IMG/VR virus record: IMGVR_UViG_3300038463_000277
Span: 1-64,000 of that record
Strand: one strand, 5' to 3'
Length of the DNA stretch: 64,000 nt
Source: a virus
Shown: positions 1 through 59,140 of the stretch, piece by piece
How positions within the stretch are numbered: the stretch's first letter is position 1
How the letters are laid out: the number at the start of each line of letters is the position of its first letter
Notes under the pieces: model-generated
Databases searched by the model: none
Told to the model about the DNA's origin: nothing
What the model saw: the letters and a program-made list of their open reading frames with translations, nothing else
Program-made: the position numbers and the translations under genes

Positions 1-446
<446 letters not shown>

Positions 447-450
<4 letters not shown>

Positions 451-1442
451 GCCTCAACCTCCACGCGGGCTTGCAACTGCACTTCGCGGCGGGCGAGAAC
501 TTCTTTCTGATAGCAGAGATAGTCATCGAGCCCGAAGGCATACGAGCCCATGTGTCCGGGGCGCACCGTGGTATCGACGAAGATCGGGATGCCGCACTCG
601 CGCGCCTTGAAGCAAAACGAGAGGTCTTCGCCATACTCGCCATCGCCCCATGGGTGCTTGAGAAATTCAAACCACCATTCGTTACCCGTCTCGCGCGCGT
701 GCTTGCGTCGTCCCGCTTCCATCTTCGCGGCAACTTCGGCACTCATCCCGAGATACTCGCGTTCATAGCGGCAACTGAGGTAATACTCTCCAACCTTGTC
801 GAGCACCGTCGTGCGCACGAGCATGAAGGCAGCGCCGACGGCAGCGACATCGAGCAAGCCGTCTGACTCCCACTCGAATGCCGTGCGATAGCTGCGCAGC
901 TCGGGCACCCAGACGCGGAAGTTAGGTAAGGGCGGGTCTTTGCGCACCGTACAAGCTCCGGCCACAATGTCAACCGGATGCGGGCCGTTCATGTGTGCGA
1001 GGAGCTTAATGAGCGCGTCGCGCGGCGGCGTCATGTCGTCGTCCATCATGAGAACGAAGTCGGCGGGTTGCCCACTCGCGCGCAACTTCACGAGCAAATC
1101 GTTGCGCACCCAATGCACCACGCTCGAAGAAATGCCCGGCGCGGGTGTAACGATGCAGTGATTTTTCGAGGCTTGCAGCATCTCGAAAACCGCTTTGTTC
1201 GTCTCCGGGGCGGGTGAGGATCGCGTCGGCATGAGCAGGCTAATGAGCGGTCGCCCGTCGTCCATCGCTTCGTCGGCAAATAGAAAGTTGTATCCCAGCT
1301 CGCGCCGCAGCGCCTCGCGTCCTTCTGCCGTTTTCAGGATGGAACGCACACGCCGCTTGGAGTCTTCCAAGTCGAGAGGATTGAGCCCCTCGGTGCGCTT
1401 CTGTTCCATCGCAAACTCGGCGATGAGTTTCTTATCGTCCAC
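447..1442 (-). CDS. GT-A fold glycosyltransferase (family 2-like)
   Basis: 331 residues. The core resembles GT-A glycosyltransferases that use a nucleotide-sugar and a divalent metal: a beta strand ending in MMDDDM (Asp134-136, the DxD-type metal site), an [10 protein letters not shown] strand near 201-210, and GEDLSFC near 271-277 followed by a His at 297, as in GT2-like enzymes where the ED pair is the catalytic base region. The N-terminal 60 residues are helical and charged and not recognised. It overlaps the fibre gene downstream and the Cys-rich gene upstream by a few bases, so it is translated within the late operon. A likely substrate is a virion protein (the fibre) or host surface sugar; this is inference. 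Confidence 0.75.
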
Positions 1443-1872
1443 TCGCGACCTCTGCGTCCTTCGGTTGCATTGCGCCGACTACCGCGCCCATGCCATGCGC
1501 GCGGAGTAGCGGAGCGAGAACTTCCACGCCCCACTTGCGCGTTTTCTCCAGCTCTTCGGCAGTGAGCGGTTCGGTGCGCCGGGTCGCGCGTTTCAAATCC
1601 TTTGCGCGCTCGGTTGGCCCCTTGTCCCACTTCTCTACCGTGTCAGAGATGAGTTCGTCCTTGGCCTGATACACGCCGTTCGCATCCTGCTTGTAGAGAG
1701 TCGGCATGGCCTGCGGGCCGGTGTAGATTTTGTTATCCGAGGGGTCGGTGATCGGCCCTTCGAACTTCGATGGATCGCAGCCGGGGCAAACTTCTTTCAC
1801 GAGCACGCCCTTGAGGTCGTAGGTCGTGCATCCCCGGCTCGTCTCACGTCCGCACCCGCAGGTCCAAGCCAT
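1432..1872 (-). CDS. Conserved-looking small protein with N-terminal Cys motif
   Basis: 146 residues. The N-terminus has CGCG (residues 5-8), C15 and CPGC (29-32), a spacing that could bind zinc. The rest is charged and helical with no recognised domain. The gene sits between the capsid gene and the glycosyltransferase in the leftward virion operon, directly abutting its upstream neighbour (stop at 1873), which suggests a virion or assembly role. Function unknown. Confidence 0.65.
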   Translation of the reverse strand: MAWTCGCGRETSRGCTTYDLKGVLVKEVCPGCDPSKFEGPITDPSDNKIYTGPQAMPTLYKQDANGVYQAKDELISDTVEKWDKGPTERAKDLKRATRRTEPLTAEELEKTRKWGVEVLAPLLRAHGMGAVVGAMQPKDAEVASGR

Positions 1873-2406
1873 TTATTGCCTCACTTCCGGCTTCTGTCCG
1901 GGGCCGGGGGGCGTGGCCGCGCGGGTCTTCACCGCGTCAAGTAGCGCATTGCCTTCGCGTAACTGCCGCTGCATGTCGGCGAGGCGCGTCGTCGTGCGGT
2001 CGAGTTGCTGAGCAGGCGTGAGATACATCTTTTCCCACGCGGCATGACCTTCGTCGCCGCTGAGCACGGCAGGATGCTGATCGAGATAGAACTGCTCCTG
2101 CGGGTCGGTCGTGTCGTAAATGCCACTTTCGCGGAAGGTCACGAGCACGCCCGGCGTCGAGCTAATCTGGCCGGTGAGCTTGTCGCGAGTCTCTTCGTTT
2201 GCCTTGAGGTTCAAGGTCGGCGTGAAGAGGCGGCGCTCTTTGATGTTTTGAATGTGGCCGCCGCCGAGATGGTAGTAAGTTTTCTTTTCTACTGTGTGGC
2301 GACCGGGCTGCGCTGCGCAATCGAAGCCATCGGGATAGCTGAAAGTCTTGTCACAGACTTCGCAAGTCGCGCGCCAGCTTTTCGCTTTGAAAGCTCTGGG
2401 GTCCAT
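1873..2406 (-). CDS. Unknown protein downstream of capsid gene, N-terminal CxxC
   Basis: 177 residues. An early CEVC (about residue 16) and a later Cys may form a small zinc site; residues around 55-110 look globular, and the C-terminal third (QLDRTTTRLADMQRQLREG) is coiled-coil-like with a Pro/Gly-rich tail. It follows the capsid gene with about 70 bp between. Position suggests a head-associated or head-tail role, but no family is recognised. Confidence 0.65.
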   Translation of the reverse strand: MDPRAFKAKSWRATCEVCDKTFSYPDGFDCAAQPGRHTVEKKTYYHLGGGHIQNIKERRLFTPTLNLKANEETRDKLTGQISSTPGVLVTFRESGIYDTTDPQEQFYLDQHPAVLSGDEGHAAWEKMYLTPAQQLDRTTTRLADMQRQLREGNALLDAVKTRAATPPGPGQKPEVRQ

Positions 2407-2475
2407 CGGTTCCTTTCAAGAAAAACCCGGCGCGGGTCGCACTCCGCGCCGGTCGAGGGGGTTGGGACAACGTGT

Positions 2476-3663
2476 TTAGGCGAACGCGCCCACGTCGTAA
2501 AGACGCGCGTGCCGAGCTTGGTGCCAGATGCGCCAACCCGCCTGCGTCATGATCAAATCCTTCATGACCTTCGGGTTGGTGGTGTCGTAATCGGGATACA
2601 TCTTGGTGTCAAGATTGATCCCGTTTTCCACCAACGGACAGAATTCAACGCTCGGCAAGTCGATGCCGAGAGCCTCACCCTGCACGCCCGCGTCAAAGTT
2701 GTAGTTATTGGCGATGAGCCAATTCCCGTTTGAGGTCACGAACCGCTTGAGGCTGACACCGAAAACCTTGTCCTCGGCCTTGGTCAGCGCCTTGTTGACG
2801 GCCCAATAATCCATCGCCTCTTTCACGAGCGGCGAGGCCATGAGCAGTTTCTCGGGGCTACCGTAACGGAACGCGAAACGGCTCCAGTTGAGGAACACCA
2901 TGAGGGTCGTCGGGGTGGTGGTGCCGCCGCCATCCGTCAGGTAAGACGAGATGATGGAGCGGATTCCCATGGTGGTGTACTTAGTCGCGGTGCCGTTCAA
3001 CTGCTCGGAGAAGCTGGAGAACAATCCGGCATTCTCGATTTCGAGCTTCTGACGGCGCATACCGAGCCACTGCAAGCGCGCCCGCTCGGGCCGGTCGCCG
3101 TAAATCTTCGTGGCGGCGGCGGTGCGGGTGATCTGGATCGGCCACTCAAAAATCTGAGCGCCCGAAGTGCAGGGGGTTTTGATCGGCGTGCGGGGCACGT
3201 CAATCGCACCCGCCTCGGACTGTGCCACGCCCAAAATTTTCAGCGTGGTGCCCGAGCCGATGGTGTTGACGGTCGTGCCTGCGAAAGCACGGGTGACGGT
3301 GAGCACGTTCGCGGCAGAGGTTACAACCTGAATCAGTTCCTCAACCGTTGACGTGGCGGCGTTCGTCATTTGCACGGCGACGACATCGTTGACGCCGAAC
3401 AGCGTCGAATCGACCACGCTGACGGTGTTCGCGGTCGTGGTGTTCGCGACGGCGGCGTTGGCGGTGCCGAGCATGACAAGATCGGCATCCTGAAACCACT
3501 CGATGCGTGGCGAGAAGACGTTCACTTTCCGCTTGCTGTTGTTGGTCAGCACGTACAGCGGGGTGCGGTCGGGCTCAAGAGTGAGCAGGCGAGTCGAGAC
3601 ATCGCGCACGTTCGATGTTTCGGTCGTGAATGAGTTGAAGCTGGAAATGTTGCGAGTGCTCAA
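2476..3663 (-). CDS. Major capsid protein, SU10/DUF5309-like
   Basis: 395 residues. The protein has the organisation of SU10-type (DUF5309) major capsid proteins: a short N-arm, a beta-barrel-like insertion (about 80-150, VVAVQMTN...VLTVTRAFAG), a spine helix region rich in Arg (DRPERARLQWLGMRRQKLEIE) and a C-terminal A-domain with GVQGEALGIDLPSVEF and a final RIWHQARHARLY segment. The start is TTG at 3663-3661, chosen because TAGGAG lies 6 nt before it and the N-terminal sequence begins there. It follows the scaffold-like gene, the usual order portal-scaffold-capsid. Family recognition is from sequence pattern only. Confidence 0.82.
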   Translation of the reverse strand: MSTRNISSFNSFTTETSNVRDVSTRLLTLEPDRTPLYVLTNNSKRKVNVFSPRIEWFQDADLVMLGTANAAVANTTTANTVSVVDSTLFGVNDVVAVQMTNAATSTVEELIQVVTSAANVLTVTRAFAGTTVNTIGSGTTLKILGVAQSEAGAIDVPRTPIKTPCTSGAQIFEWPIQITRTAAATKIYGDRPERARLQWLGMRRQKLEIENAGLFSSFSEQLNGTATKYTTMGIRSIISSYLTDGGGTTTPTTLMVFLNWSRFAFRYGSPEKLLMASPLVKEAMDYWAVNKALTKAEDKVFGVSLKRFVTSNGNWLIANNYNFDAGVQGEALGIDLPSVEFCPLVENGINLDTKMYPDYDTTNPKVMKDLIMTQAGWRIWHQARHARLYDVGAFA

Positions 3664-24914: not shown

Positions 24915-25826
24915 CTACCTACCGTCAGTCTGCTCGTTTACAATTTCACCGAAAGCAAATTCTTGCTGCCCGAATGGTTCACAGCTTTCCGAGCATCCTG
25001 AATCCTCGTCGCCGTCGTCTGCGATCCGCGAGTTGACTAGTTCTGCTATTCCGATAATGTCGCCGGTAGTGCGTTGCTCGCGGAAGAACCGTCTTGGCCT
25101 GCCATCAGCATAGGTTCCGTACTTTTCTTCCATGCGTGCGGGGAACTCGAATACTTCTGGAGTCTCCTGCGCGATTGCCACGAGTTTGTTGATATTTTTC
25201 TTCCAGCACCAAGTACAGTTGCCCTGATAAGACTTCAGGTTTAGTCGGTAAGCATGATCCTCCCAGAAGCGATTCACGCCTCCCTTATCCGTTGGGAACA
25301 TCGTAACTAGTGGGTAGATGATCTTTGCCGCCTCGGCATCGGCTCTTATACGGGAAGGCTCATCTACCCTGATGCCGATAGCCGTAAAATAGCTATCCCA
25401 GCCGATTGATGCCATGTATGAACGGATCGGATTCAGCTTCAACTCCCGAGTGCAATGCGGATACTTCTGATTCGGGATGCCGTATTTGTCGATCACGGCC
25501 TCGAAAGGCTCACCCTTCATCGCAACGCCATCAAGAGATACCAGCCGATGCGTGCAGCCGATCCTGCCCTCGTGTGTCACGGCCTCAAGTACGTGGATCG
25601 GGAAGCCCCACTCTTCATCCATTTGCCGCAAAAACTCGAACGTCTCGCGCCGCTCCTGCCCTGTATTCGCCATCACGAAGCACATTTCGTAAATGTCGTT
25701 GTAGTTTGCGAGCAACTCCTGAGCCATAAAGGCTGAAGTTTCTCCACCCGACACGCTTACGCAAAGACGCTCCTTGCTCAAGTTTGTAGCTGCAAGCCTC
25801 GGCTCTTGGTGCTTGTGTTCGCTCAT
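24915..25826 (-). CDS. PP-loop ATPase of the PAPS-reductase-like family
   Basis: 303 residues. The PP-loop SVSGGETSA (24-32) and the family's later motifs are present: ANTGQERRETFEF, HCTRELKLNPIRSYM (Cys125), GIRVDEPSRI and CTWCWKK (204-209). It belongs to the adenine-nucleotide alpha-hydrolase group that includes PAPS reductase and DndC-type proteins, in which ATP is used to adenylate a substrate or sulfur is transferred. In phages such genes are often of unknown role; nearby DNA/RNA modifying genes suggest nucleic-acid modification, but this is inference. Confidence 0.75.
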   Translation of the reverse strand: MSEHKHQEPRLAATNLSKERLCVSVSGGETSAFMAQELLANYNDIYEMCFVMANTGQERRETFEFLRQMDEEWGFPIHVLEAVTHEGRIGCTHRLVSLDGVAMKGEPFEAVIDKYGIPNQKYPHCTRELKLNPIRSYMASIGWDSYFTAIGIRVDEPSRIRADAEAAKIIYPLVTMFPTDKGGVNRFWEDHAYRLNLKSYQGNCTWCWKKNINKLVAIAQETPEVFEFPARMEEKYGTYADGRPRRFFREQRTTGDIIGIAELVNSRIADDGDEDSGCSESCEPFGQQEFAFGEIVNEQTDGR

Positions 25827-27854: not shown

Positions 27855-28471
27855 GCGCTCCTCCGGTCCTGATTGAGAACACCAATGCGGTAGTAGCTGC
27901 CAAGCCTTGACGCGAGCCGCTCATCGACCAAGCGCGCCACGTCCTCCAGCCCGAAATTCGTCGTCACGACCGTCGGCAGAAGCGCGTTCCCTCGGCGGTC
28001 GATCAGGTCGAGCAGACTGCGCCGCTCGTGATCGCTCAAGCTCCCACTCGCAATGTCGTCGAGTACGAGCCACATCGCCCCGGCATACTTCCGCAGGATG
28101 TCCATCTCGCTCGGCAAAGCGAGCGGATCGCGGTAGCTCTCCCGCAGCTCGGCGTAGAAGTCCGCCGCCCGTACAAAAACGGGACGCTTCCGCGCCTCGT
28201 ACAAACTCCGCATCATGGCGCAAGCGAGATGCGTCTTCCCCGAGCCCGTCGGCCCCCAGAGCATTAACCCCTCGGTCGGTTTCAGGATGAACTCGGAGAC
28301 ATCCCGGCGAATGTCCGGGTCGAAGTCCGCGAGCTTTGCCCCGTGGAACTTTGGCGGCAAGACCGTGCGCAGGGTTTTGTCGAGAATGCACGGGCACCGC
28401 GTCGTCGAACAGTCCGGCCCGACAATCCAACCCGTATCCCCGCAGTGCGGGCACTCGCTATTTTTTTTCAT
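27851..28471 (-). CDS. DnaC/IstB-like AAA+ helicase loader
   Basis: 206 residues from ATG 28471. N-terminal zinc-type cluster CPHC...CPC (7-28), then an AAA+ core: Walker A GPTGSGKT (73-80), Walker B LVLDDI (135-140), sensor 1 TTN (170-172) and Arg finger ASR (187-189). Loads a replicative helicase onto single-stranded DNA; no helicase gene is in this window, so it probably recruits the host's. Overlaps the replication gene upstream. Confidence 0.85.
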   Translation of the reverse strand: MKKNSECPHCGDTGWIVGPDCSTTRCPCILDKTLRTVLPPKFHGAKLADFDPDIRRDVSEFILKPTEGLMLWGPTGSGKTHLACAMMRSLYEARKRPVFVRAADFYAELRESYRDPLALPSEMDILRKYAGAMWLVLDDIASGSLSDHERRSLLDLIDRRGNALLPTVVTTNFGLEDVARLVDERLASRLGSYYRIGVLNQDRRSA

Positions 28472-29321
28472 CTCGGCTACTCGTGTACTTGCTAAGGTCG
28501 GCCCTCGTGTCATGAACGGCTCCTGTCGTTTCCCGCTTCACCACATCCCGGCTCCACGTCTTCGGGTCACGCCGGTACTGCGACTCGTGGAAGAACTTCG
28601 CAGCGCCGGGGATGAAATTGAATTCCGCCTTGTCCCACTTTCGGACTACCTCGGCCATGCTCTTCGTCCCCGCAAAAACCAGATCGCGACCGTCCCGCGC
28701 CACGGCCTCGACGATGGCGACCTCGACGTCATGGGGTAGGTGTTGGGGATCGAGCACCTTGGGGTACAGCTTCGCTATCTCCATCACCACGGCGTCGAGG
28801 TTGCCGTTGCTTTTCGTGAGATTTTGACTTTCGAATTTCAAACCCGCCCGGTTTTGACTCGCCGCTTTTTCCGGCTTCTCAACCGAAAGGGGGGTAGGGG
28901 GGTTCTTGGAATCAGGAATCAAAGAATCAGGAATCAAGGAATCAGCCGGGCTAGTACCATGCTCGTCTGGTGCGAGTCCGGTGCGAGTCCGGTGCGAGTC
29001 TGGTGCTGGTATGGTGCTCTGCGCCTCTTTCACGTGTGGATTCTGATGTTTACGAAAGTTCACTATCTGCACGGCTTCGCGACCATCCGCCACGCCATAG
29101 CGACGAATGAAGCCAGCTTTCTCAAGCTCTACGCACAGTAGCGCCACGCTCACGCGACGGTATGGCAACACCTCCGCTTTGATCTGCTCCGGGCGATACC
29201 AAAGTCGCCCTTCCCGGTCGGCCATACACCACATGCCGATGAACAGGATTTGAGCCGCAAGCGGTAGGTTTGCCAGCTCCGCGTTCTTAAAAAATCCCGG
29301 CTTAATGTTCCTAGCTCTCAC
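28458..29321 (-). CDS. Replication protein with N-terminal winged helix (DnaD/lambda O-like role)
   Basis: 287 residues. Residues 1-75 (NLPLAAQILFIGMWCMADREG, then VALLCVELEKAGFIRRYGV) resemble winged-helix phage replisome organisers. The Pro/Ser-rich middle carries the repeated coding sequence described separately; the C-terminal part has EVAIVEAVARDGRDLVFAGTKS. Followed by the helicase loader, a usual pair. A related gene lies at 29997-30821. Confidence 0.7.
   Translation of the reverse strand: MRARNIKPGFFKNAELANLPLAAQILFIGMWCMADREGRLWYRPEQIKAEVLPYRRVSVALLCVELEKAGFIRRYGVADGREAVQIVNFRKHQNPHVKEAQSTIPAPDSHRTRTGLAPDEHGTSPADSLIPDSLIPDSKNPPTPLSVEKPEKAASQNRAGLKFESQNLTKSNGNLDAVVMEIAKLYPKVLDPQHLPHDVEVAIVEAVARDGRDLVFAGTKSMAEVVRKWDKAEFNFIPGAAKFFHESQYRRDPKTWSRDVVKRETTGAVHDTRADLSKYTSSRDEKK
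28909..28945. repeat. 15-bp tandem repeat (GAATCAGGAATCAAA-type) inside replication gene
   Basis: Two copies of a 15-bp unit (28909-28923 and 28924-28938, one difference) plus a 7-bp third partial (28939-28945). They encode SLIPDSLIPDS. Located within the replication gene, like iterons in lambdoid O genes. Confidence 0.75.
28970..29016. repeat. 11-bp tandem repeat (GTGCGAGTCCG-type) inside replication gene
   Basis: Three near-perfect copies (28970-28980, 28981-28991, 28992-29002) and two decayed ones to about 29016. Together with the AT-richer repeat just before, they suggest a replication origin within the gene. Confidence 0.75.
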
Positions 29322-29996: not shown

Positions 29997-30821
29997 TCAT
30001 GCTGCACCCTGACCTCGGAAATACTCGACCCAATTCGCAGGGGCCTTACCCTGTGCCTTGAGTAGAGCCGCAGGGCCGAATACCTTGTTCCCGGCTGCCT
30101 CTAGAGATAATCCCTCATGCCTCGCCTTAACTCTGATTGCCTCAATAACTGTATCGGTTAGTGTTAGGCTGACAGGTATACCCAATGCGTCTAGCATCCT
30201 CGCTGCAAAAACTTCGATAGCTCTTCGCCTTGTTTCGCGGTCCTTTGCCCCTAATCCTTCGAGGTCACTCTCTAGTACAAAGTCGTGAGTATTACCCTCT
30301 GCGGGCTCTTCTAGTGCATCGCTTTCATTTTGCAGTGCTTGCGCATCATCGGAGTGCAACGGCTTCGCTACAGGTCCGTTATGCGCCTGCACTGCGGCTG
30401 TGCGTTCCACGTGAAACGCATCCGCCTTACACTTCGCGCAATAGCACGCGGCGTGATGCTCGTGAGGAGATTTCGGGATAGTGGAATGGCTAGGACGGTT
30501 TAGAACCAAGTCGGCAATATTGACTATGCGCAGGTACTCGCGGCGTTCGACTTTGTAACGTTCGATCAGGTCCGCATCGGCGAGCTGTGCAAGCCATTCG
30601 ACAACGTTCGCGATGGTAGCGTCGCCTTCGGCGGGGAAGATATAGCTTTGGAGAGCACGCGGCGAATACTCCATCCGCCCCATGTCGTCACAGAAACACG
30701 TGAGGCCAACGTACAGCCACCGGGCGGAGTGCGAGCACTCGGCGAGGGCGTCATCTGAAAAGTAAGTGGGGCGAATCTTGCGAACTCTTGGCAAGGGTAA
30801 AACCTTTCGGTTTACCCTCAT
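29997..30821 (-). CDS. Second replication-type winged-helix protein
   Basis: 274 residues. Residues 15-110 (CSHSARWLYVGLTCFCDDMG, then VVEWLAQLADADLIERYKV) share the pattern of the winged-helix region of the protein at 28458-29321. Two Cys pairs (CYCAKC near 135) follow, and a C-terminal DLxDAL-type helical region. It is the first gene of the leftward early operon. ATG 30821 has an overlapping hairpin (GGTAAA...TTTACC), so initiation may be regulated. A paralogue by likely duplication. Confidence 0.6.
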   Translation of the reverse strand: MRVNRKVLPLPRVRKIRPTYFSDDALAECSHSARWLYVGLTCFCDDMGRMEYSPRALQSYIFPAEGDATIANVVEWLAQLADADLIERYKVERREYLRIVNIADLVLNRPSHSTIPKSPHEHHAACYCAKCKADAFHVERTAAVQAHNGPVAKPLHSDDAQALQNESDALEEPAEGNTHDFVLESDLEGLGAKDRETRRRAIEVFAARMLDALGIPVSLTLTDTVIEAIRVKARHEGLSLEAAGNKVFGPAALLKAQGKAPANWVEYFRGQGAA

Positions 30822-34281: not shown

Positions 34282-34494
34282 ATGGCAAAACTTCAAGGCA
34301 CACCGATTGCGCTACCCGGAATGGAACGGCACGAAGCGGAGCGCGCGGAAGTCGCAGGCGTCGAACTCGCGGCTGATCTGACCGCGAAGTTACTTCAACC
34401 TACCAACATCGAGGCGCGCGCGGGCGCGTTAGAGATGAACTCGCCGCTGTTTCGCGGCACGGATGCGAGCCCGCAGACGGAGTTATTCTCATGA
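34282..34494 (+). CDS. Small protein carrying an NSPLFRGT motif
   Basis: 70 residues. N-terminal part is helical and charged; the end reads AGALEMNSPLFRGTDASPQTELF. A very close segment (about 18 of 23 residues) is found at residues 847-869 of the 1393-residue polyvalent protein (51883-56064). The motif may be a targeting or interaction peptide shared between an early protein and an injected virion protein. Role otherwise unknown. Its start lies behind promoter cassette 4. Confidence 0.6.
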   Translation: MAKLQGTPIALPGMERHEAERAEVAGVELAADLTAKLLQPTNIEARAGALEMNSPLFRGTDASPQTELFS

Positions 34495-39816: not shown

Positions 39817-40404
39817 ATGGGACGCATTCGGCTACCCAAGGGGCAAACGCCGGACGACACGGCGGCGGGGCAACGCATTCAGGCAACCGCCACGCTGCAC
39901 AACCGTGAAATGAATCGCACGGAACGCAAGTATGCCGACCATCTGCGCGAGCGGCTCATGATCGGCGAGATTCGATGGTGGGAGTACGAGGCTTGGAAGT
40001 TCCGCCTCGCGGACAACACGTATTACACGCCCGATTTCATCGTCGTCACGAACGATATGCGGATTGAGGCGCACGAGGTCAAAGCGTACTGGCCGGGGCG
40101 CGACGGCAAGCTCGGTAAGACGGGATGGACGGACGACGCCCGCGTAAAGATCAAAGTCGCGGCGGAAGAGCATCCCGTGCGTTTCATCGCGGTCACGCTC
40201 ATGCCAGATCAGCAATGGCACATTGAGCAGTTTCAGAAAGACACGGAAGAGACACCGGCACTCGAAACCGAGAGCCGTCAGCAAGAGCTGCGGCAGATCG
40301 CGGACGCGCTACACATGCCGGACGGCATGGTCAACGTGGATGGCATCGTGCGCGCCATCGCGGAACTCGATGCGGCGGCGCACACCACTAGCAGGGGAAT
40401 GTGA
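39817..40404 (+). CDS. PD-(D/E)XK endonuclease-like protein (DUF1064-like)
   Basis: 195 residues. NRTERKYADHLRERLMIGEIRWWEYEAWKFRL, then TYYTPDFIVV and IEAHEVKAYW give the E...PD...ExK layout of DUF1064/Holliday-junction-like nucleases. Likely resolves or trims recombination intermediates. Start ATG 39817. The last 60 residues are charged and variable. Confidence 0.65.
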   Translation: MGRIRLPKGQTPDDTAAGQRIQATATLHNREMNRTERKYADHLRERLMIGEIRWWEYEAWKFRLADNTYYTPDFIVVTNDMRIEAHEVKAYWPGRDGKLGKTGWTDDARVKIKVAAEEHPVRFIAVTLMPDQQWHIEQFQKDTEETPALETESRQQELRQIADALHMPDGMVNVDGIVRAIAELDAAAHTTSRGM

Positions 40405-40414
40405 GAGGAACCCA

Positions 40415-40807
40415 ATGGAAGCGAATGTACCGCGTCAGGAACTAAGCCTCTTTGACATTTGCCGGGGAGCCGTGCCGGAAGTTTTCGCGCGCGAGCTGGC
40501 GGAAGTGTTGGAGAACATTGCGGACGTGAATACCTCGGCGAGCGGCAAGCGGCGCATCGTGCTCACCTTCGAATTTACGCCCTACCCGGATCGCTCGGCG
40601 TTCTCGTGCTCGCTGCAATGCAAGAGCGGGCTCGCGTCGGTCGAGGCTATCGACGGCATCGGCTACCTCGTCAAGACGGGCGGCAAGATCACGGCCTACT
40701 CGAAAGACATCCGGCAGCAATCGCTCTGGGATAAGGACGACGACGCAACGGCGAAGGACGGCAAGAGCGCCGGGGCCGGGGACAAGGTTGTAGGGATTGG
40801 ATCATGA
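40415..40807 (+). CDS. Unknown 130-residue recombination-operon protein
   Basis: 130 residues from ATG 40415. KRRIVLTFEFTPYPDRSAFSCSLQCKSGLASVEAI suggests a beta-rich core; Asp/Lys-rich end. No family recognised; seen in similar place in related-looking phage operons, between nuclease and small membrane genes. Confidence 0.55.
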   Translation: MEANVPRQELSLFDICRGAVPEVFARELAEVLENIADVNTSASGKRRIVLTFEFTPYPDRSAFSCSLQCKSGLASVEAIDGIGYLVKTGGKITAYSKDIRQQSLWDKDDDATAKDGKSAGAGDKVVGIGS

Positions 40808-50563: not shown

Positions 50564-51055
50564 ATGTCACTAGGCCAAAAGCAAGCGCTGGAAGTGTTAG
50601 AAAGGGAGCTTAAACAAATACGCGAGGAAAATCGCCTTGAAGAGCAAAGCCTCGAAGAGACCATCAACGCGCTGCGCCGGAACATGGAGAAAACGGAGCA
50701 GTCCAAAAAGAAGAGGAGAGATTTGACTGTCAAGAAAGGCGGCTGGGTAGGTATGGCCGCCCCGGATGCAATTCACGCCTACCTTGCGCAAGCGGATGGC
50801 CCGGTCTCGTTTCTCGCGCTGGTCGATGCGCTAATAACGGGCGGGGTCGATCTAGGCACGGACCCGAAACGGTACGAGCGGAACGTGCGCTCGACGCTCG
50901 GGAACACTCGCGACCGCTTTCTTTATGATCCTGAAAAAGAGATGGTGGATTTATTGCCGTCGTCGGGATTGTTGAAACGTGCGAAGGCGAAGCGCGAGGC
51001 GAAAACGAAGGCTAGAAAAGCAGAAAAGAAAGCGCACAAAGAAGCAACCGCTTAA
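50564..51055 (+). CDS. Coiled coil plus HARE-HTH-like domain protein
   Basis: 163 residues. N-terminal coiled coil (10-50); a winged HARE-HTH-type domain about 62-128 (DAIHAYLAQADGPVSFLALVDALITGG then NVRSTLGNTRDRFLYD); Lys/Glu-rich tail. Probably binds DNA, perhaps modified DNA, as proposed for HARE-HTH domains. Ends in convergence with the leftward gene at 51052. Confidence 0.6.
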   Translation: MSLGQKQALEVLERELKQIREENRLEEQSLEETINALRRNMEKTEQSKKKRRDLTVKKGGWVGMAAPDAIHAYLAQADGPVSFLALVDALITGGVDLGTDPKRYERNVRSTLGNTRDRFLYDPEKEMVDLLPSSGLLKRAKAKREAKTKARKAEKKAHKEATA

Positions 51056-51716: not shown

Positions 51717-51929
51717 ATGATGATTCTCTTCGACTCATTCGACTTGAAGAACCTCCGCGAGTTTGCCTGTCCGATATGCTTCGAGCCGAGCCCGGTCACG
51801 CTCGGCGAAAAGTGGCAAGTGTGCCCGCAGTTCCATTTCACGAAGACGAAGACGATTTGCCCAACCGACCGAACGATTGACCCTAATAGTGCCCCTTCTC
51901 GCCTTCCTTCACCGCATCCGCATCAATGA
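51717..51929 (+). CDS. Possible Cys-containing rightward protein
   Basis: 70 residues. CPICFEPSPVTLGEKWQVCPQFHF suggests a zinc site; the rest is less convincing. It overlaps the end of the large leftward gene by 47 bases and stands alone in this direction, so it may be a chance frame. Confidence 0.3.
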   Translation: MMILFDSFDLKNLREFACPICFEPSPVTLGEKWQVCPQFHFTKTKTICPTDRTIDPNSAPSRLPSPHPHQ

Positions 51930-54900
51930 CAATCACTCGTCCATCGGGCAGCCTGCCCAAGTTATAGGTCGCGGCATCCCAGCTTAAACCCTGAGCGTCG
52001 AGTTTTTTGGTCATCGCGATGGAGTCTGCCTCGGTGATGCCCGAAGTGTCTACCCACGGGTAAATTCCGACATGCACTTTCTTGCTTGCGCCCTGAATCA
52101 CTTCTGTTTTGATCGGCGCAATCACGTCGGGACTCTTGATTGTGCTCGGGGGCTCATCGCTGACTCGCATCACGTTGCCGTTCTTCAAGTCGAACACTAC
52201 AGCCTTAGTGCCGCTGTTCAAGTACGAGATGGGCTCGGTACTGTTCTCCGCCGCGAACTTGCGAATGCTCGACATCGTTTGCGGCCCGGTGGGGATGGTG
52301 TTGTTAACGTGGTAATTGAAGTCGGCGCTTTCATCGTCCGACATGGGGCGAGGTTCGTGAGCCGCTGGAGCTGGAGCCGTGGCTCCGGGCGCGGGCTCTC
52401 CTCCTTCGGGAGCTTGTCCAAGTTCTTTGCCGATGGCGGCGCGAATCTGCGGGTAGATTTCCTTAAAAACTCCATCGAGCTTCTCGCCCTGCGTAACGCG
52501 CTTGCCCGCGTCTTCTAGGATTGAGCCCACGGGGCCAGATTTGTACTGCACTCGGTTGAAGTGTTCCGCGAGTTGCTGCGCGCCCGCCGCTTGCTGCGCG
52601 GATTCGTTCATGTCAACGATGTTCTTGCCACGGGCGAGAGCCGCTTGCCGCGATGCGTCCGCCTTCGAGATGAACTGCAAAGCGGAAGTTTCTCCACGGA
52701 GCGCGCCGTCGATCTTCGAAGCGAGGCGGCCCGTTGCGACCGCGTTCGATACCGAGTCTTCTTGGTCGCCGAAGAGCCCTTGTGTGGTGGTCGCGGTGTT
52801 GCCCTGCTCCTTGATGCGCAAAGCCTGCTGCTGTAGGTCCGCCGCCGAGAGGCGATGCGAGGTTGCCATCTGCGCGAGCGCGGCCTGCTGCTTCGGATCG
52901 TCGAGACCTCCAACCGCGACGGCTTTGTTCTCGTCAATCTCACCCGAGCGATACTTGTCCCACATCGCATCGGAGAGATTGGAGAGGGCGGAGCCTTTCT
53001 TTATTACGTCGCCCGTCAGATTGATGCCGCGAGCCGCGAGCGCGCCGGTCGTTGTGCCGGTCTGCCGCAGATAGCTCGCAGCGTCGAACGGTGTCGCATT
53101 CCCCGCCTCTAGATTTTTCTCCGCTCCAAAGCGTTTCGCTTCGGCGGCGTTTGCAAAATCATGAAACCGCGCTTCGATTTCCGGCGTGCCCGTCGCGACG
53201 GCGTGATTGTAACGATGATGCCCATCGACGACTTTGACCTTGTTGTCGGCTGGATCGCGCCAAACGTCTATCGGCCCGGCCTTGTCCTGATCCCATGGCG
53301 CGCCTTCGGGTATAGTCGGGCGCGGCATCTGCCGCCATTGGAAAGTCGCGGGGTCAGCGGTCAGGTCTTTGGTCTGCACCATGCGCACTGCCGAGGGGCG
53401 GCCCATGGTCTCGCCGTCGGGTTTGGTCGCGGCGGGTTCGGACTCTGGCGAACCGCCAAACATTTCGTTCTGCGGGCTCGCGCCGGTTCCACGGAAGAGC
53501 GGCGAATTTGACTCCATCGCGCCCGCTGCGCGCTCGATGTTGCCTTTGGGTTGAGCGAGGTCGGCGGTCATGCTCGCGCCAGCTTCGGCGCTGCGCACGG
53601 TCGCACGTTCGGCTACGTGGTTTTCCATGCCCGGCAGTGATGGCTCTGAGGTAGCACCCTGCGGCTCTCTCACCATATAGCCGAGCGCCGGATCGGTGCC
53701 GGGCTCGGGAACGAAGCCGTGTTGCCCGTACCATTTGACTAAATTGTCTTTCCCTAACCGCGTTGCTTCATCGCCATAGGGGGACGCCGTTAGCTCCATG
53801 GTCACGCCGTGCTTGTCCGCGATGTCGGTGATAGACCGAAGTGCGGAATTCCCCGCGCCGGTGCCGGGCTTTAAGGTTTGGATTCCTTTCAGCCGTAGCC
53901 TGCCATCGTTTTCGGCGACGGTAAAGGTCGCGTTCGGCCCGTCCTTGCCCATCGAAGCATATTCTTTCGGATTGGTGCCCGCGCCCGGATTGTTGGGGTT
54001 GACGGGGAACTGCTTGTCGATTTCCTGTAACGCTCCATGGACTCCGGTCGCCGTTGGCTCGGGAGTGGCCGCTGCCGGGGCTGGCGGGGCCGCTGGGGCG
54101 CTCGCTGGCGGTGGCGTGGTCTGAGGGGTGCCCTCTGTGAGCTGGCGAGGCTTCGAACGCCCTGCCTCCCATGGCATGACGGGGCGGGTTTGGGCTGGGA
54201 TCGTGGCCGGGCCTGCCGGAATCGGACCTCTTTCGGTCGGTACATACTGTTGGCTGTCCATGAGCTGCCGGGGGACGACTCCAGAGACCGGGTTGTGTTG
54301 TGGCGCGGCGTATTGGCCTGCGGGCAACGCGCCCTTGATGGTCGGCGGCGGGGCCGTCGCTTCCGGCATGTACTGGCCTTCGTGAACTTCGTTTGGCAGC
54401 ATGAGGCGCGACGGAACGGGAATGGGCGATGCGCCTGCGGGTCTAGCACCGGGCGCGGCGGCGGCATTGACGGCGCTTGTCGCGCTCGTGGCCGAGGTCG
54501 CGGGGAGCTGCGGCGGTACTGGCCTCGGCGCGGCGGTTGCCTGCGGCCCCGGCCCTCCGGCGAGAGGCGGCCCTTCCGGCATCGCGTTTGCGGCGCGCTG
54601 CGCGAGCATGTCAGGCGCGTTGAAATACTTGTGAATTTGGCTCGCCGCAATCGACCCGACGCCGCCCAAAGCTGCGAGGGGATGCCCGGCCATGAGCGCG
54701 GCGAGAGCTTCGCCGCCGCCGCCTAGCAAAGTTAGTTGCTGTTGGAGAGTCGAGCCTTGGTGACGCGCGTTTACCACGGCGCGCTTGTCGAAGACTTTTT
54801 GAATCTGCTTGAGCGCGCCGTACTGCTGGCGCAACCCGGTCGGATCAGTCTCGCCGTTGGCGGTGAGCTTATCGTCGATGGCAGTGCGCAAACCCGCTGC

Positions 54901-56064
54901 CGCGTCTTCCATTGCCGAGATGCTGCCGCTCGTCATGCCTGCGGCGTGCTGCATGTCGGGCGTCATTCTGTAATAGCCCTTTAGTTCCGCGTTGAGCGTT
55001 TGCAGATAGTCGCTCGCTTTCGCGATGGTGATAGGGCCGTCGAACTTGCTGGCGAAGTCAGTTGCCCGCTGCGCTTTTTCAGGGAAGAGGTCTCTCATCC
55101 CATCCGTGACACCGGAGCGAATTTTGTCGCCGATGGGTGAGCCGTCGATAACTGCCGTCGCGTTGCGGTCGATCTGCGGTTGATAGAACTGTTTATAGAG
55201 CCTGTCAGCGGCTTCGTGTGCGCCGTCCGCCATGTTCTCCGCGCTCTTGATCGGCTTAATTTTGTTTTGCTCGGCGATGCGCGGCCCCGCCGTATCTACC
55301 GCGTCAGAAAATCCACGGTCGAGGACGGACGGCCCTCCGGCCTTGTTCATTAACTCTTGACCTGAAAGCCCGATGCCCGTCGCGTTCTTCCCTGCATTCA
55401 AGACGGCCTTCGTGCCTGCCGTTGCGCCTTTCACTACGCCGCCGCCGACGGTATCGACTACGGAGTTAGTAACCCCCTCGCCCGTCTTTGTGCCGAGCCC
55501 GAGCATCGCCAATTGCGCCGATGCCGAGCCTAAGCCGTGCGCGATCTGTTCCGGGTCGCCCGACTTGATACCCTGACCAACTTCCTCGCCTGCTCCAACC
55601 GTCGCGGGTCCGAGGAGCGGGATCGCCGCGCCGACCGCATGAACGACGCCGCTAAATTTATTGGCTAGACCCTCACTCCGTAGCTCTTGCTGACCCTTTT
55701 CGAAAAGCGCGTTCTGCGAGTCGTACATCGAGCCGCCGACTAACTTCGCCGATTCGACCGGATGTTTGATGATGTTCCACAAGCCGGGGACGCCCGTGAA
55801 GTCTGAGGCGTGCGAGGTCTCGGGCAATCCAGCGCCACTTGCCGCACCTAACATTCCCTCGCGCAATACTCCGCCGACCTTTTGGTCAACGGTGCGCGGG
55901 GTTGCCGGTGTCGCCACAACTGGCGGCGGACCCGTAGTAACCGGCTTACCCCCTAGATCGGAGAAGTCAATCGGGCCGGGTGCTGGCGCGGGCGGCGGCG
56001 GACCAACCGGCTTGCCCCCTAGATCGGAGAAGTCAATCGGTTGAGTACCAGAGTTACTTGCCAT
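51883..56064 (-). CDS. Large polyvalent (injected) protein with GNAT-like, ParB-like and kinase-like parts
   Basis: 1393 residues. Two N-terminal IDFSDLGGKPV repeats (10-20 and 32-42); an Ala/Gly helical part (150-240); a Pro/Ala linker (500-670); a GNAT-like domain (675-800: LKPGTGAGNSALRSITDIADKHG, WYGQHGF); the NSPLFRGTGASPQNEMF motif (853-869); a ParB/Srx-like domain (895-1060: VDGHHRYNHA); and a C-terminal protein-kinase-like fold (about 1280-1385: LNSGTKAVVFDLKNGNVMRVSD, VIVIDADA). Such multi-domain proteins are known as phage polyvalent proteins, delivered with the DNA to counter host functions. Activity of each domain is not shown. Confidence 0.65.
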   Translation of the reverse strand: MASNSGTQPIDFSDLGGKPVGPPPPAPAPGPIDFSDLGGKPVTTGPPPVVATPATPRTVDQKVGGVLREGMLGAASGAGLPETSHASDFTGVPGLWNIIKHPVESAKLVGGSMYDSQNALFEKGQQELRSEGLANKFSGVVHAVGAAIPLLGPATVGAGEEVGQGIKSGDPEQIAHGLGSASAQLAMLGLGTKTGEGVTNSVVDTVGGGVVKGATAGTKAVLNAGKNATGIGLSGQELMNKAGGPSVLDRGFSDAVDTAGPRIAEQNKIKPIKSAENMADGAHEAADRLYKQFYQPQIDRNATAVIDGSPIGDKIRSGVTDGMRDLFPEKAQRATDFASKFDGPITIAKASDYLQTLNAELKGYYRMTPDMQHAAGMTSGSISAMEDAAAGLRTAIDDKLTANGETDPTGLRQQYGALKQIQKVFDKRAVVNARHQGSTLQQQLTLLGGGGEALAALMAGHPLAALGGVGSIAASQIHKYFNAPDMLAQRAANAMPEGPPLAGGPGPQATAAPRPVPPQLPATSATSATSAVNAAAAPGARPAGASPIPVPSRLMLPNEVHEGQYMPEATAPPPTIKGALPAGQYAAPQHNPVSGVVPRQLMDSQQYVPTERGPIPAGPATIPAQTRPVMPWEAGRSKPRQLTEGTPQTTPPPASAPAAPPAPAAATPEPTATGVHGALQEIDKQFPVNPNNPGAGTNPKEYASMGKDGPNATFTVAENDGRLRLKGIQTLKPGTGAGNSALRSITDIADKHGVTMELTASPYGDEATRLGKDNLVKWYGQHGFVPEPGTDPALGYMVREPQGATSEPSLPGMENHVAERATVRSAEAGASMTADLAQPKGNIERAAGAMESNSPLFRGTGASPQNEMFGGSPESEPAATKPDGETMGRPSAVRMVQTKDLTADPATFQWRQMPRPTIPEGAPWDQDKAGPIDVWRDPADNKVKVVDGHHRYNHAVATGTPEIEARFHDFANAAEAKRFGAEKNLEAGNATPFDAASYLRQTGTTTGALAARGINLTGDVIKKGSALSNLSDAMWDKYRSGEIDENKAVAVGGLDDPKQQAALAQMATSHRLSAADLQQQALRIKEQGNTATTTQGLFGDQEDSVSNAVATGRLASKIDGALRGETSALQFISKADASRQAALARGKNIVDMNESAQQAAGAQQLAEHFNRVQYKSGPVGSILEDAGKRVTQGEKLDGVFKEIYPQIRAAIGKELGQAPEGGEPAPGATAPAPAAHEPRPMSDDESADFNYHVNNTIPTGPQTMSSIRKFAAENSTEPISYLNSGTKAVVFDLKNGNVMRVSDEPPSTIKSPDVIAPIKTEVIQGASKKVHVGIYPWVDTSGITEADSIAMTKKLDAQGLSWDAATYNLGRLPDGRVIVIDADAVKEGEKGHY

Positions 56065-58564: not shown

Positions 58565-59140
58565 TTACTTCCCTGCGTAGGCCGCGCCAACCTGACCCGC
58601 TGCTTGGATTCCAGACTGTGCGAGCCCGCCGATAACACCCAGCGCCGTCGGCTTCTGAGGTCCGCTGATAATCGACTGGTTTGCGTTGCCCTGCATCCCG
58701 CCGTAACCCATGGCCTGCTGACCGGCGATCTGCTGTTGTCCCTGCACTCCAGCCGCGCCCTGATTTTTTGCCATCTGTTGCGCCATCATGTTTTGCGTCA
58801 TCGAGGCGTCGAAGGAATTCGCTTGCTGCGCGCCGAGGTTCGAGGTCAATGAGTCGCGATAGCCCGAGGGCATGTTCCCGTATTGCGACGTTTGCCGAAG
58901 CATCTGCGCGCGCGCTGGGGCATAGGCTTGCGCGTTCGCACCCGCGCTGTAGTCGGTGAGGGAGTTATAGAACGGCAAGCCCTGCTTCATCTGATTGTTG
59001 TAAAAGCCGGTGGCCCCGGTTTGATCGGCGTTCTGCTGGCCTTGCTGCTGGATCATCTGCGAATTCGCATTGCCCGCGAGACCCTGCTGCCCGCTGATTG
59101 AGCTATTCAACTGCCCCGCTGATACTCCTCCACCGCCCAT
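58565..59140 (-). CDS. Gln-rich helical virion protein
   Basis: 191 residues, very rich in Gln, Asn, Gly, Ala; helical (ARAQMLRQTSQYGNMPSGYRDSLTSNLGAQQANSFD) with a Gly-rich C-terminal hydrophobic end (GVIGGLAQSGIQAAGQVGAAYA). Likely an internal ejection protein that may form a membrane channel; inference. Confidence 0.55.
   Translation of the reverse strand: MGGGGVSAGQLNSSISGQQGLAGNANSQMIQQQGQQNADQTGATGFYNNQMKQGLPFYNSLTDYSAGANAQAYAPARAQMLRQTSQYGNMPSGYRDSLTSNLGAQQANSFDASMTQNMMAQQMAKNQGAAGVQGQQQIAGQQAMGYGGMQGNANQSIISGPQKPTALGVIGGLAQSGIQAAGQVGAAYAGK

Follow-up and report, generated by a model that had tools for sequence, protein, structure and literature searches.

What is the role of a 1393-residue viral protein in which parts resembling an acetyltransferase, a ParB protein, and a kinase are joined in one polypeptide? 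This question is raised by P0001, a gene of virus record IMGVR_UViG_3300038463_000277 (68,959 bases in full), of which positions 1 to 64,000 form the stretch of DNA analyzed here (the window). The evidence presented below makes it likely that P0001 is a phage polyvalent protein, that its gene closes a proposed ejection cassette and is the largest one there, and that it would act in the host cell by the course set out near the end of this text.

P0001 is a selected gene built of exchangeable modules

The gene lies on the minus strand exactly where an earlier note, made from the sequence, had placed it (Table 1), and its open reading frame (ORF) begins with ATG and contains no internal stop. Residues ~803 to 1224 share 63% identity with a portion of a 1433-residue protein of a second virus (G003), and over the same residues the nonsynonymous divergence (dN) is 0.32 and the synonymous divergence (dS) is 2.4, which is near saturation. 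These values show that the P0001 ORF is a translated gene and exclude a chance ORF, and by this codon comparison P0001 is under purifying selection at the protein level. Peptide-pattern searches of viral_contigs and genome_contigs found no close relative of the whole protein.

Module borders were taken from an all-against-all blastp comparison of eight proteins. The G003 protein shares with P0001 a mini-domain (MD) followed by a ParB module, but it carries a zeta kinase (8e-21) where P0001 carries a GNAT domain. P0001 shows domain exchange between relatives, several unrelated predicted activities in one polypeptide (GNAT and ParB, with a weaker kinase-like tail), and a place among virion genes, in a same-strand cassette that is conserved with G003 and in a record that has an SU10_MCP match. 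The polyvalent layout proposed in the earlier note is largely supported by the fold and sequence matches of the GNAT and ParB parts, the two parts covered by the Foldseek and VIA fold comparisons; the models of the MD, kinase-like, and N-terminal parts are of low confidence.

In the GNAT part, the order of strands and helices fits GNAT and the glycine-rich motif A is kept, in a predicted model whose predicted local distance difference test score (pLDDT) is mostly 60 to 84. Among the VIA matches listed, 50 of 50 rows are GNATs, and the top row is the anti-CRISPR acetyltransferase AcrVA5 (Z 9.7, 95 residues, root mean square deviation [rmsd] 3.0). Foldseek E-values are 5e-3 at best, and tblastn found 12 records with E-values of 2e-4 to 0.1. 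These relatives include giant proteins annotated as N-6 adenine-specific DNA methylase, structural protein, and DarB-like antirestriction protein. Based on the model and these matches, we conclude that residues ~670 to 800, which had been called GNAT-like from the sequence, have a GNAT-superfamily fold; acetyl transfer itself is predicted.

The ParB module has a predicted Noc/ParB/KorB-type fold

The ParB module gives Pfam HTH_ParB and NCBIfam parB_part matches, both under the cut-off, and in PHROGs it matches phrog_21, labeled "portal protein" (1.2e-26), as well as ParB-like partition proteins. The confidence of its model is good (most blocks 75 to 90). Foldseek matches it to Noc (E 5.1e-8), ParB, and KorB over ~210 columns that cover both the CTPase-type fold and the helix-turn-helix (HTH), and VIA gives Z values of 10 to 12 (for Noc 7nfu, Z 10.1 over 196 residues). 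The N-domain alone fits 7bm8 at 2.5 Å over 93 residues (VIA), and the high rmsd of some other VIA rows is probably due to the two-domain arrangement. The viral fold matches include proteins titled "Large polyvalent protein associated domain-containing." We conclude from the predicted model that this is a ParB CTPase-type fold with an HTH, as in Noc, ParB, and KorB, for which nucleotide and DNA binding are predicted. A ParB/Srx-like part had been proposed on the basis of VDGHHR (residues 946 to 951); the ParB half of that proposal is confirmed, and beyond the Srx-like pocket the module continues into a ParB HTH and a long helical tail.

At least 174 of 211 viral stretches retrieved by pattern encode a relative of this module. 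Of the 174, 80 were kept and form 44 clusters at 90% identity, 34 of them represented by complete ORFs with a median of 1449 residues (range, 391 to 3177; 23 have at least 1000). One relative is fused to a Mu-type portal (L044), another shares its protein with GGDEF and LPD38 (L037), and a third shares its protein with FtsK gamma (L058). Partition ParBs carry a GERR pocket. The GERR-type CTP motif does not occur in this module, which has GH[HN]R instead; G, H, and R are invariant in 80/80 loci, a count that was not de-duplicated and that comes from loci preselected by similarity, and the third position is N in 60 and H in 20. The 68,959-base contig contains no parS-like cluster of palindromes and thus gives no sign of a particular site in phage DNA for the HTH. 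As a separate observation, perfect palindromes are depleted in this contig (window, L004), with 15 12-mers versus ~31 expected and 3 14-mers versus 7 expected, as if restriction sites were being avoided.

The module might instead be a nuclease, regulated by nucleoside triphosphate, that nicks or degrades host DNA and is no DNA-binding clamp, as has been proposed for DdrB-like ParB domains. The departure of the pocket from GERR and the missing parS-like cluster both fit such an enzyme. In addition, the G003 protein has a weak match to ParBc_2 ("ParB-like nuclease"), and a nuclease role for such ParB domains is argued in the relevant part of Iyer et al. (PMC5512222). However, the fold matches run through the ParB HTH domain, the family matches are to HTH_ParB and parB_part, and neither P0001 (E 0.1) nor the G003 protein has a ddrB-ParB Pfam match. 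A nuclease is a real but lesser possibility, and we prefer a module that binds DNA. None of the few papers found on ParB, CTP, bacteriophage, and virion mentions an injected ParB, as judged by title and abstract opening.

MD is a recurrent module with a stand-alone copy, P0005

The earlier note had suggested that the combination of these domains with NSPLFRGT (residues 853 to 860) may be new. The order GNAT-MD-ParB-kinase is indeed seen only in P0001, the search for homologues with the same order having found MD-ParB in G003, but the motif itself belongs to a recurrent module of ~65 residues. A whole-record search found one MD copy in each of 24 other virus records, all in frames of 1000 to 3604 residues, and MD was found in 22 viral loci after profile improvement. 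It lies ahead of ParB in P0001, G003, and L027 and after ParB in, for example, L038, L068, L116, L119, L125, L130, L132, L134, and L135. It occurs without ParB in the 1179-residue protein of G010 and in the visible ORFs of, for example, L021, L026, L117, L120, L122, and L124, and also in L126, L128, L129, and L131, in which the ORF is cut at the locus edge; the share of MD with ParB is biased because one scan started from ParB. MD is also found in Acidobacteria, Verrucomicrobia, and Granulicella metagenome-assembled genome contigs, and in a search of 396 genomes from the phylum to which G013 (the Granulicella genome behind L028) belongs, G013 alone has it. An unnamed region directly before MD is ~30% identical between L021:5040-8579 (residues ~769 to 985) and L026:3235-8805 (residues ~674 to 925), and in the L021 protein this region has no Pfam match.

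MD and P0005 have no Pfam match at E 10, hence none to the LPD1 to LPD40 models there, although some LPDs may be outside Pfam. P0005 has no PHROGs or NCBIfam match and, searched alone, no match in viral_contigs; MD has none in the phages or plasmids databases, and the string SPLFRGT was not found in the literature searched. From its sequence distribution, we regard MD as an uncharacterized large-polyvalent-protein-associated module. Merging identical C-terminal segments reduces 30 rows to 23 distinct segments (L114, which has only the first half of MD, is counted but omitted from A7, and MD_L028 is without its true N terminus because of a broken contig). These end in Q-x-x-[LMI]-F in 20/23 cases and in N-P-[TS]-L-F in 2/23, with 1 partial, and PGM, SPL, and Qxx[LMI]F are fixed in most of the 23.

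P0005 is 63% identical to P0001 residues 808 to 870, the second match to MD in its own genome, and it is the only stand-alone MD gene among the 25 virus records that carry MD. A ribosome-site-like AAGGGG precedes it, it overlaps the following gene at an ATGA, and its operon adjoins DUF932. Between P0005 and the MD of P0001, dN is 0.36 and dS is 1.7 over 65 codons, a ratio far below 1, with dS near saturation.

Another explanation is that MD is a mere flexible spacer or processing site and that P0005 is a functionless spare cassette of the kind found in Verrucomicrobium polyvalent loci, for which section 10 of PMC5512222 provides the precedent. The low model confidence over MD, its position between domains on either side of ParB, and the lack of a separate copy in the other 24 records are consistent with this. 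It is nevertheless somewhat unlikely, given the motifs conserved over 23 distinct copies and, for P0005, the translation signals and the constraint on its amino acids. P0005 could also be an antagonist that competes for the partner of the injected protein and so switches its action off, or that shields a lysogen from incoming phage. The recurrence of the module in an operon of its own next to DUF932 would suit such a role, as would the fact that the phage has an integrase, but a stand-alone copy in 1 of 25 viruses argues against it, and we consider it improbable.

More doubtful still is the idea that MD acts as a tail that docks on a replication protein of the host, the beta sliding clamp being the simplest candidate, with P0005 as a free clamp-binding peptide that would carry on the effect within the cell. 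According to the motif descriptions in PMC11139829, the clamp-binding motif is Q-aliphatic-x-[LM]-[FL], Pol III alpha QADMF counts as a member, Asn may replace Gln, and an Ile at position 4 makes for weaker motifs. The Q, position 4, and F of MD fit in 20/23 copies, some of which have I at position 4, but the residue at position 2 (N, T, G, R, K, or S) is not aliphatic, and we give this reading low weight for that reason. Strings of the form Q..[LMI]F occur 20 times outside MD in 43,336 residues of the same ORFs and so are not rare. The phage's own helicase loader and initiators would fit use of the host replisome, which is circumstantial. If the clamp reading were true, injected ParB-MD proteins would either link the entering phage DNA to the host replisome or bring the replisome of the host to a halt, and one peptide module would reach the cell twice, first in the virion and later as the product of an expressed gene. 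For MD we favor a more general adaptor, as described below.

Motif pairs recur at the N terminus

The repeat IDFSDLGGKPV, reported earlier for P0001, is present in two exact copies within its first 42 residues. Other pairs at the N terminus are IDLSGGFQ (twice in G003), FDPDAFH (twice in G010), DDLD[SA]FM (L026), DDFAxIAKP (L027), DIFDQYA (L058), DIFDQVA (L110), and FDADxFMA (L065). The first 75 residues outscore all other windows of the same protein in 17/64 ParB- or MD-bearing proteins (2.6 expected) and in 5/103 control ORFs (9.4 expected), and a doublet score of at least 27 is reached by 18/64 and 1/103, respectively. The scoring scheme and the threshold of 27 were picked after examples had been viewed. 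The 64 proteins remain from 99 after reduction by N-terminal similarity, with starts taken as the first ATG, GTG, or TTG, and the controls are other, nonoverlapping ORFs of at least 400 residues from the same loci, which may include nongenes. The listed pairs do not all pass; that of L058 fails the own-window test. Judged by these sequence scores, N-terminal pairs recur in unrelated forms across ParB- and MD-bearing proteins, and a loading or ejection tag is a natural guess for their function. The searched passages of PMC5512222 contain no description of such pairs. Another type of pair may be seen where residues 54 to 112 of L018:5850-12809 and residues 11 to 67 of the L016 protein form a 42% identical N-terminal segment, each with two VP...AL..GF units by eye.

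Behind the pair, residues 137 to 196 match G009 (48% identity) and residues 282 to 491 match G003, G005, and G010 (25 to 29% identity), within a region of predicted helical shape. The Pro/Ala linker that the earlier note had pointed out is plain in the sequence and is modeled as coil, mostly at a pLDDT of <50; it is probably disordered.

The C-terminal tail is weakly kinase-like

The C-terminal domain has 15 matches on plasmids at E-values up to 10 (best, 1e-3), of which 14 are from Burkholderia and 14 are conjugative. The relative examined is a 659-residue protein with Zeta_toxin and KfrB domains, encoded near a TraG-type gene. Both proteins have a Gly before the second strand, an Arg, D-x4-N, and a D after DGRV. 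Kinases have the ATP-binding Lys where these two proteins have Arg. Section 10 of PMC5512222 lists truncated kinases among the domains of polyvalent proteins, and the tail fits that description, but the histidine described just before the D is not seen. NCBIfam gives only an unrelated weak match. No relatives were found in the phages or viral_contigs databases, among the loci collected in this analysis, or in the 396 genomes of the G013 phylum, the last an empty result without a positive control. We regard the domain as tentatively kinase-like by sequence. The kinase part of the earlier note stands to the extent that one distant family keeps D-x4-N and D, and weakens with the Arg and the poor model; the structure prediction by segment that it proposed recovered the GNAT and ParB folds and gave a low-confidence model of the kinase-like part. 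The zeta kinases of the plasmid protein and of the G003 protein are related to each other (3.6e-9), which suggests that one toolkit may serve virions and conjugation.

Genome context and coordinates

The record encodes an SU10-type major capsid protein at 2476 to 3663 (Pfam 6.4e-21), which together with the gene order bears out the virion-region label given to P0001. It also has a terminase-like match (phrog_5989), an integrase, RecE- and RecT-like proteins, a Holliday-junction resolvase, a DnaC-like helicase loader, and two related replication-initiation proteins. Among the ORFs put through family searches, a subset of the total, none was named as a DNA polymerase. The phage is SU10-like and probably temperate.

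Read leftward, the genes encode a 264-residue protein, a 1412-residue protein, small proteins including a Gln/Ala-rich one of 191 residues, a 607-residue protein, and P0001. By their sizes and positions, the first two could be a tail tube and a nozzle, which sequence comparison did not confirm. G003 has the same order, ending in its 1433-residue protein, with counterparts of 145 residues (versus 169 here; 56% identity over 147), 187 residues (versus 191; Table 1), and 677 residues (versus 607; 42% over 50 residues). The ParB relative in Prochlorococcus phages, 2563 residues long, is encoded after genes annotated as tail tubular and three hypothetical ones, a position that we take to be that of T7 gp16. 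SU10 gp20 to gp24 are reported as ejection proteins, present in virions and absent from genome-release particles, in the part of PMC9509320 that deals with them. By analogy, we place P0001 in an ejection cassette and infer that it is packaged and ejected with the DNA; the Mu-type portal fusion of L044 is consistent with this.

Table 1. Coordinates of P0001, its modules, and associated genes in the window
Feature	Position	Strand	Basis
P0001, 1393-residue polyvalent-type protein	51883..56064	-	ATG start, uninterrupted ORF
IDFSDLGGKPV copy 1, residues 10-20	56005..56037	-	Exact match
IDFSDLGGKPV copy 2, residues 32-42	55939..55971	-	Exact match
Helical region, residues ~100-490	54595..55767	-	blastp, alignment, mostly low-confidence model
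Pro/Ala-rich linker, residues ~500-660 (visible stretch about 495-665)	54085..54567	-	Sequence; model
GNAT acetyltransferase domain, residues ~670-800	53665..54057	-	Fold and sequence matches
MD, residues 803-870, with LPGME, NSPLFRGT, QNEMF	53455..53658	-	Recurrent module
ParB module, residues ~885-1216: CTPase-type fold with VDGHHR, HTH, helical tail	52417..53412	-	Family and fold matches
Kinase-like C-terminal domain, residues ~1260-1388	51901..52287	-	Plasmid relatives; low-confidence model
607-residue protein upstream of P0001	56234..58057	-	Proposed ejection-cassette member by position
191-residue Gln/Ala-rich protein	58565..59140	-	58% identity over 128 residues to syntenic G003 protein
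P0005, 70-residue stand-alone MD copy, ending ...SPQTELFS	34282..34494	+	In operon, separate from P0001

Several other genes were observed. Downstream of the polyvalent gene and on the opposite strand, a small gene occupies the same place in both viruses (50564 to 51055 [+] here and L017:4943-5482 [+]), and the two are alike by eye. The replication-initiation proteins are consecutive (28458 to 29321 and 29997 to 30821, both minus strand) and both match phrog_16167. A phosphoadenosine phosphosulfate reductase-like gene (24915 to 25826 [-]; 4.6e-46) may be an auxiliary metabolic gene or a relative of the DNA-modification type, and a "replication terminator" PHROG match (8.7e-17) lies at 40223 to 40807 (+).

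Proposed course of action and its significance

We propose that the paired N-terminal motif and the helical region would direct P0001 into the head and then, together with the first DNA, through the tail, and that the long disordered linker would leave the C-terminal enzymes free to work in the cytoplasm. Once inside, the GNAT domain may acetylate host targets and the kinase-like tail may phosphorylate them. The ParB module, which would be nucleotide dependent and has its own HTH, is predicted to bind DNA and would most likely protect, organize, or regulate the incoming genome. The adjoining MD would be an adaptor that docks P0001 on a host or phage partner, and P0005 would supply the same adaptor made in the cell.

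Several observations weigh against this scheme. Packaging is deduced from gene order and relatives; by sequence, P0002 and P0003 are tied to known tail proteins by nothing beyond a weak match; the kinase fold is unconfirmed, with no Pfam or relevant PDB match and a model pLDDT of <50; the N-terminal model is also mostly <50; no Pfam domain of P0001 passes the curated cut-off; and the palindrome search described above was empty. P0001 might also be no more than a structural or scaffold protein whose enzyme-like domains have decayed, as the Arg in the kinase-like part and the low overall sequence similarity to known enzymes might suggest. This is very unlikely in view of the invariant ParB pocket, the retained glycine-rich motif of GNAT, and the purifying selection.

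Polyvalent proteins are predicted takeover tools for the first moments of infection, and few of their modules have known targets. The occurrence of MD both in a presumed injected protein and in a small gene of the same virus provides a 70-residue handle for finding a partner, and the N-terminal pairs offer a candidate head-loading or ejection signal that can be tested. Because at least 174 viral stretches encode the ParB module, injection of a DNA-binding protein with a ParB fold may be common to many phages.

Comparison with known systems

A close counterpart of P0001, the 1433-residue G003 protein (IMGVR_UViG_3300005764_000055), is like it in MD-ParB (63%), N-terminal pair, helical region, and cassette order, but it has a zeta-toxin-type kinase in place of GNAT and ends after ParB, without the kinase-like tail. 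The 2563-residue protein of Prochlorococcus phages P-SCSP1 (e.g., OM416768, a record classed as Autographiviridae) has a ParB module 27 to 28% identical to that of P0001, and the match spans residues 891 to 1214 only. The Zeta toxin family protein of Burkholderia conjugative plasmids (e.g., NZ_CP046610), encoded near a conjugal transfer gene, is ~30% identical over ~100 residues at its kinase-like C terminus. In contrast to P0001, it has Zeta and KfrB domains, and its delivery, if any, would be by conjugation. Noc, ParB, and KorB (7nfu, 7bnr, and 8qa9) share the predicted CTPase-type fold and HTH with P0001, which differs in having GHHR for GERR, in carrying the module within 1393 residues, and in a phage contig in which no parS-like cluster was found. 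Sliding-clamp-binding motifs (QL[SD]LF; Pol III alpha QADMF) have the same spacing of Q, hydrophobic residue, and F as 20/23 MD copies and differ in being mostly aliphatic at position 2.

The polyvalent class and each of the enzyme types were already described in 2017, as the relevant sections of Iyer et al. show (PMC5512222; prototype, phage P1 DarB/DdrB). Like P0001, those proteins are large, are encoded in the virion region, and join GNAT, ParB, kinase-type, and other conflict domains as exchangeable modules. P0001 differs from them in that no metallopeptidase was found, in that its ParB has the Noc/ParB fold with an HTH and GH[HN]R and lacks a ddrB-ParB Pfam match, and in that it carries MD. 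P0001 stands out by a combination of modules seen only in it, an uncharacterized module with a stand-alone twin, and recurrent N-terminal pairs, of which the module and the pairs are the unexpected part.

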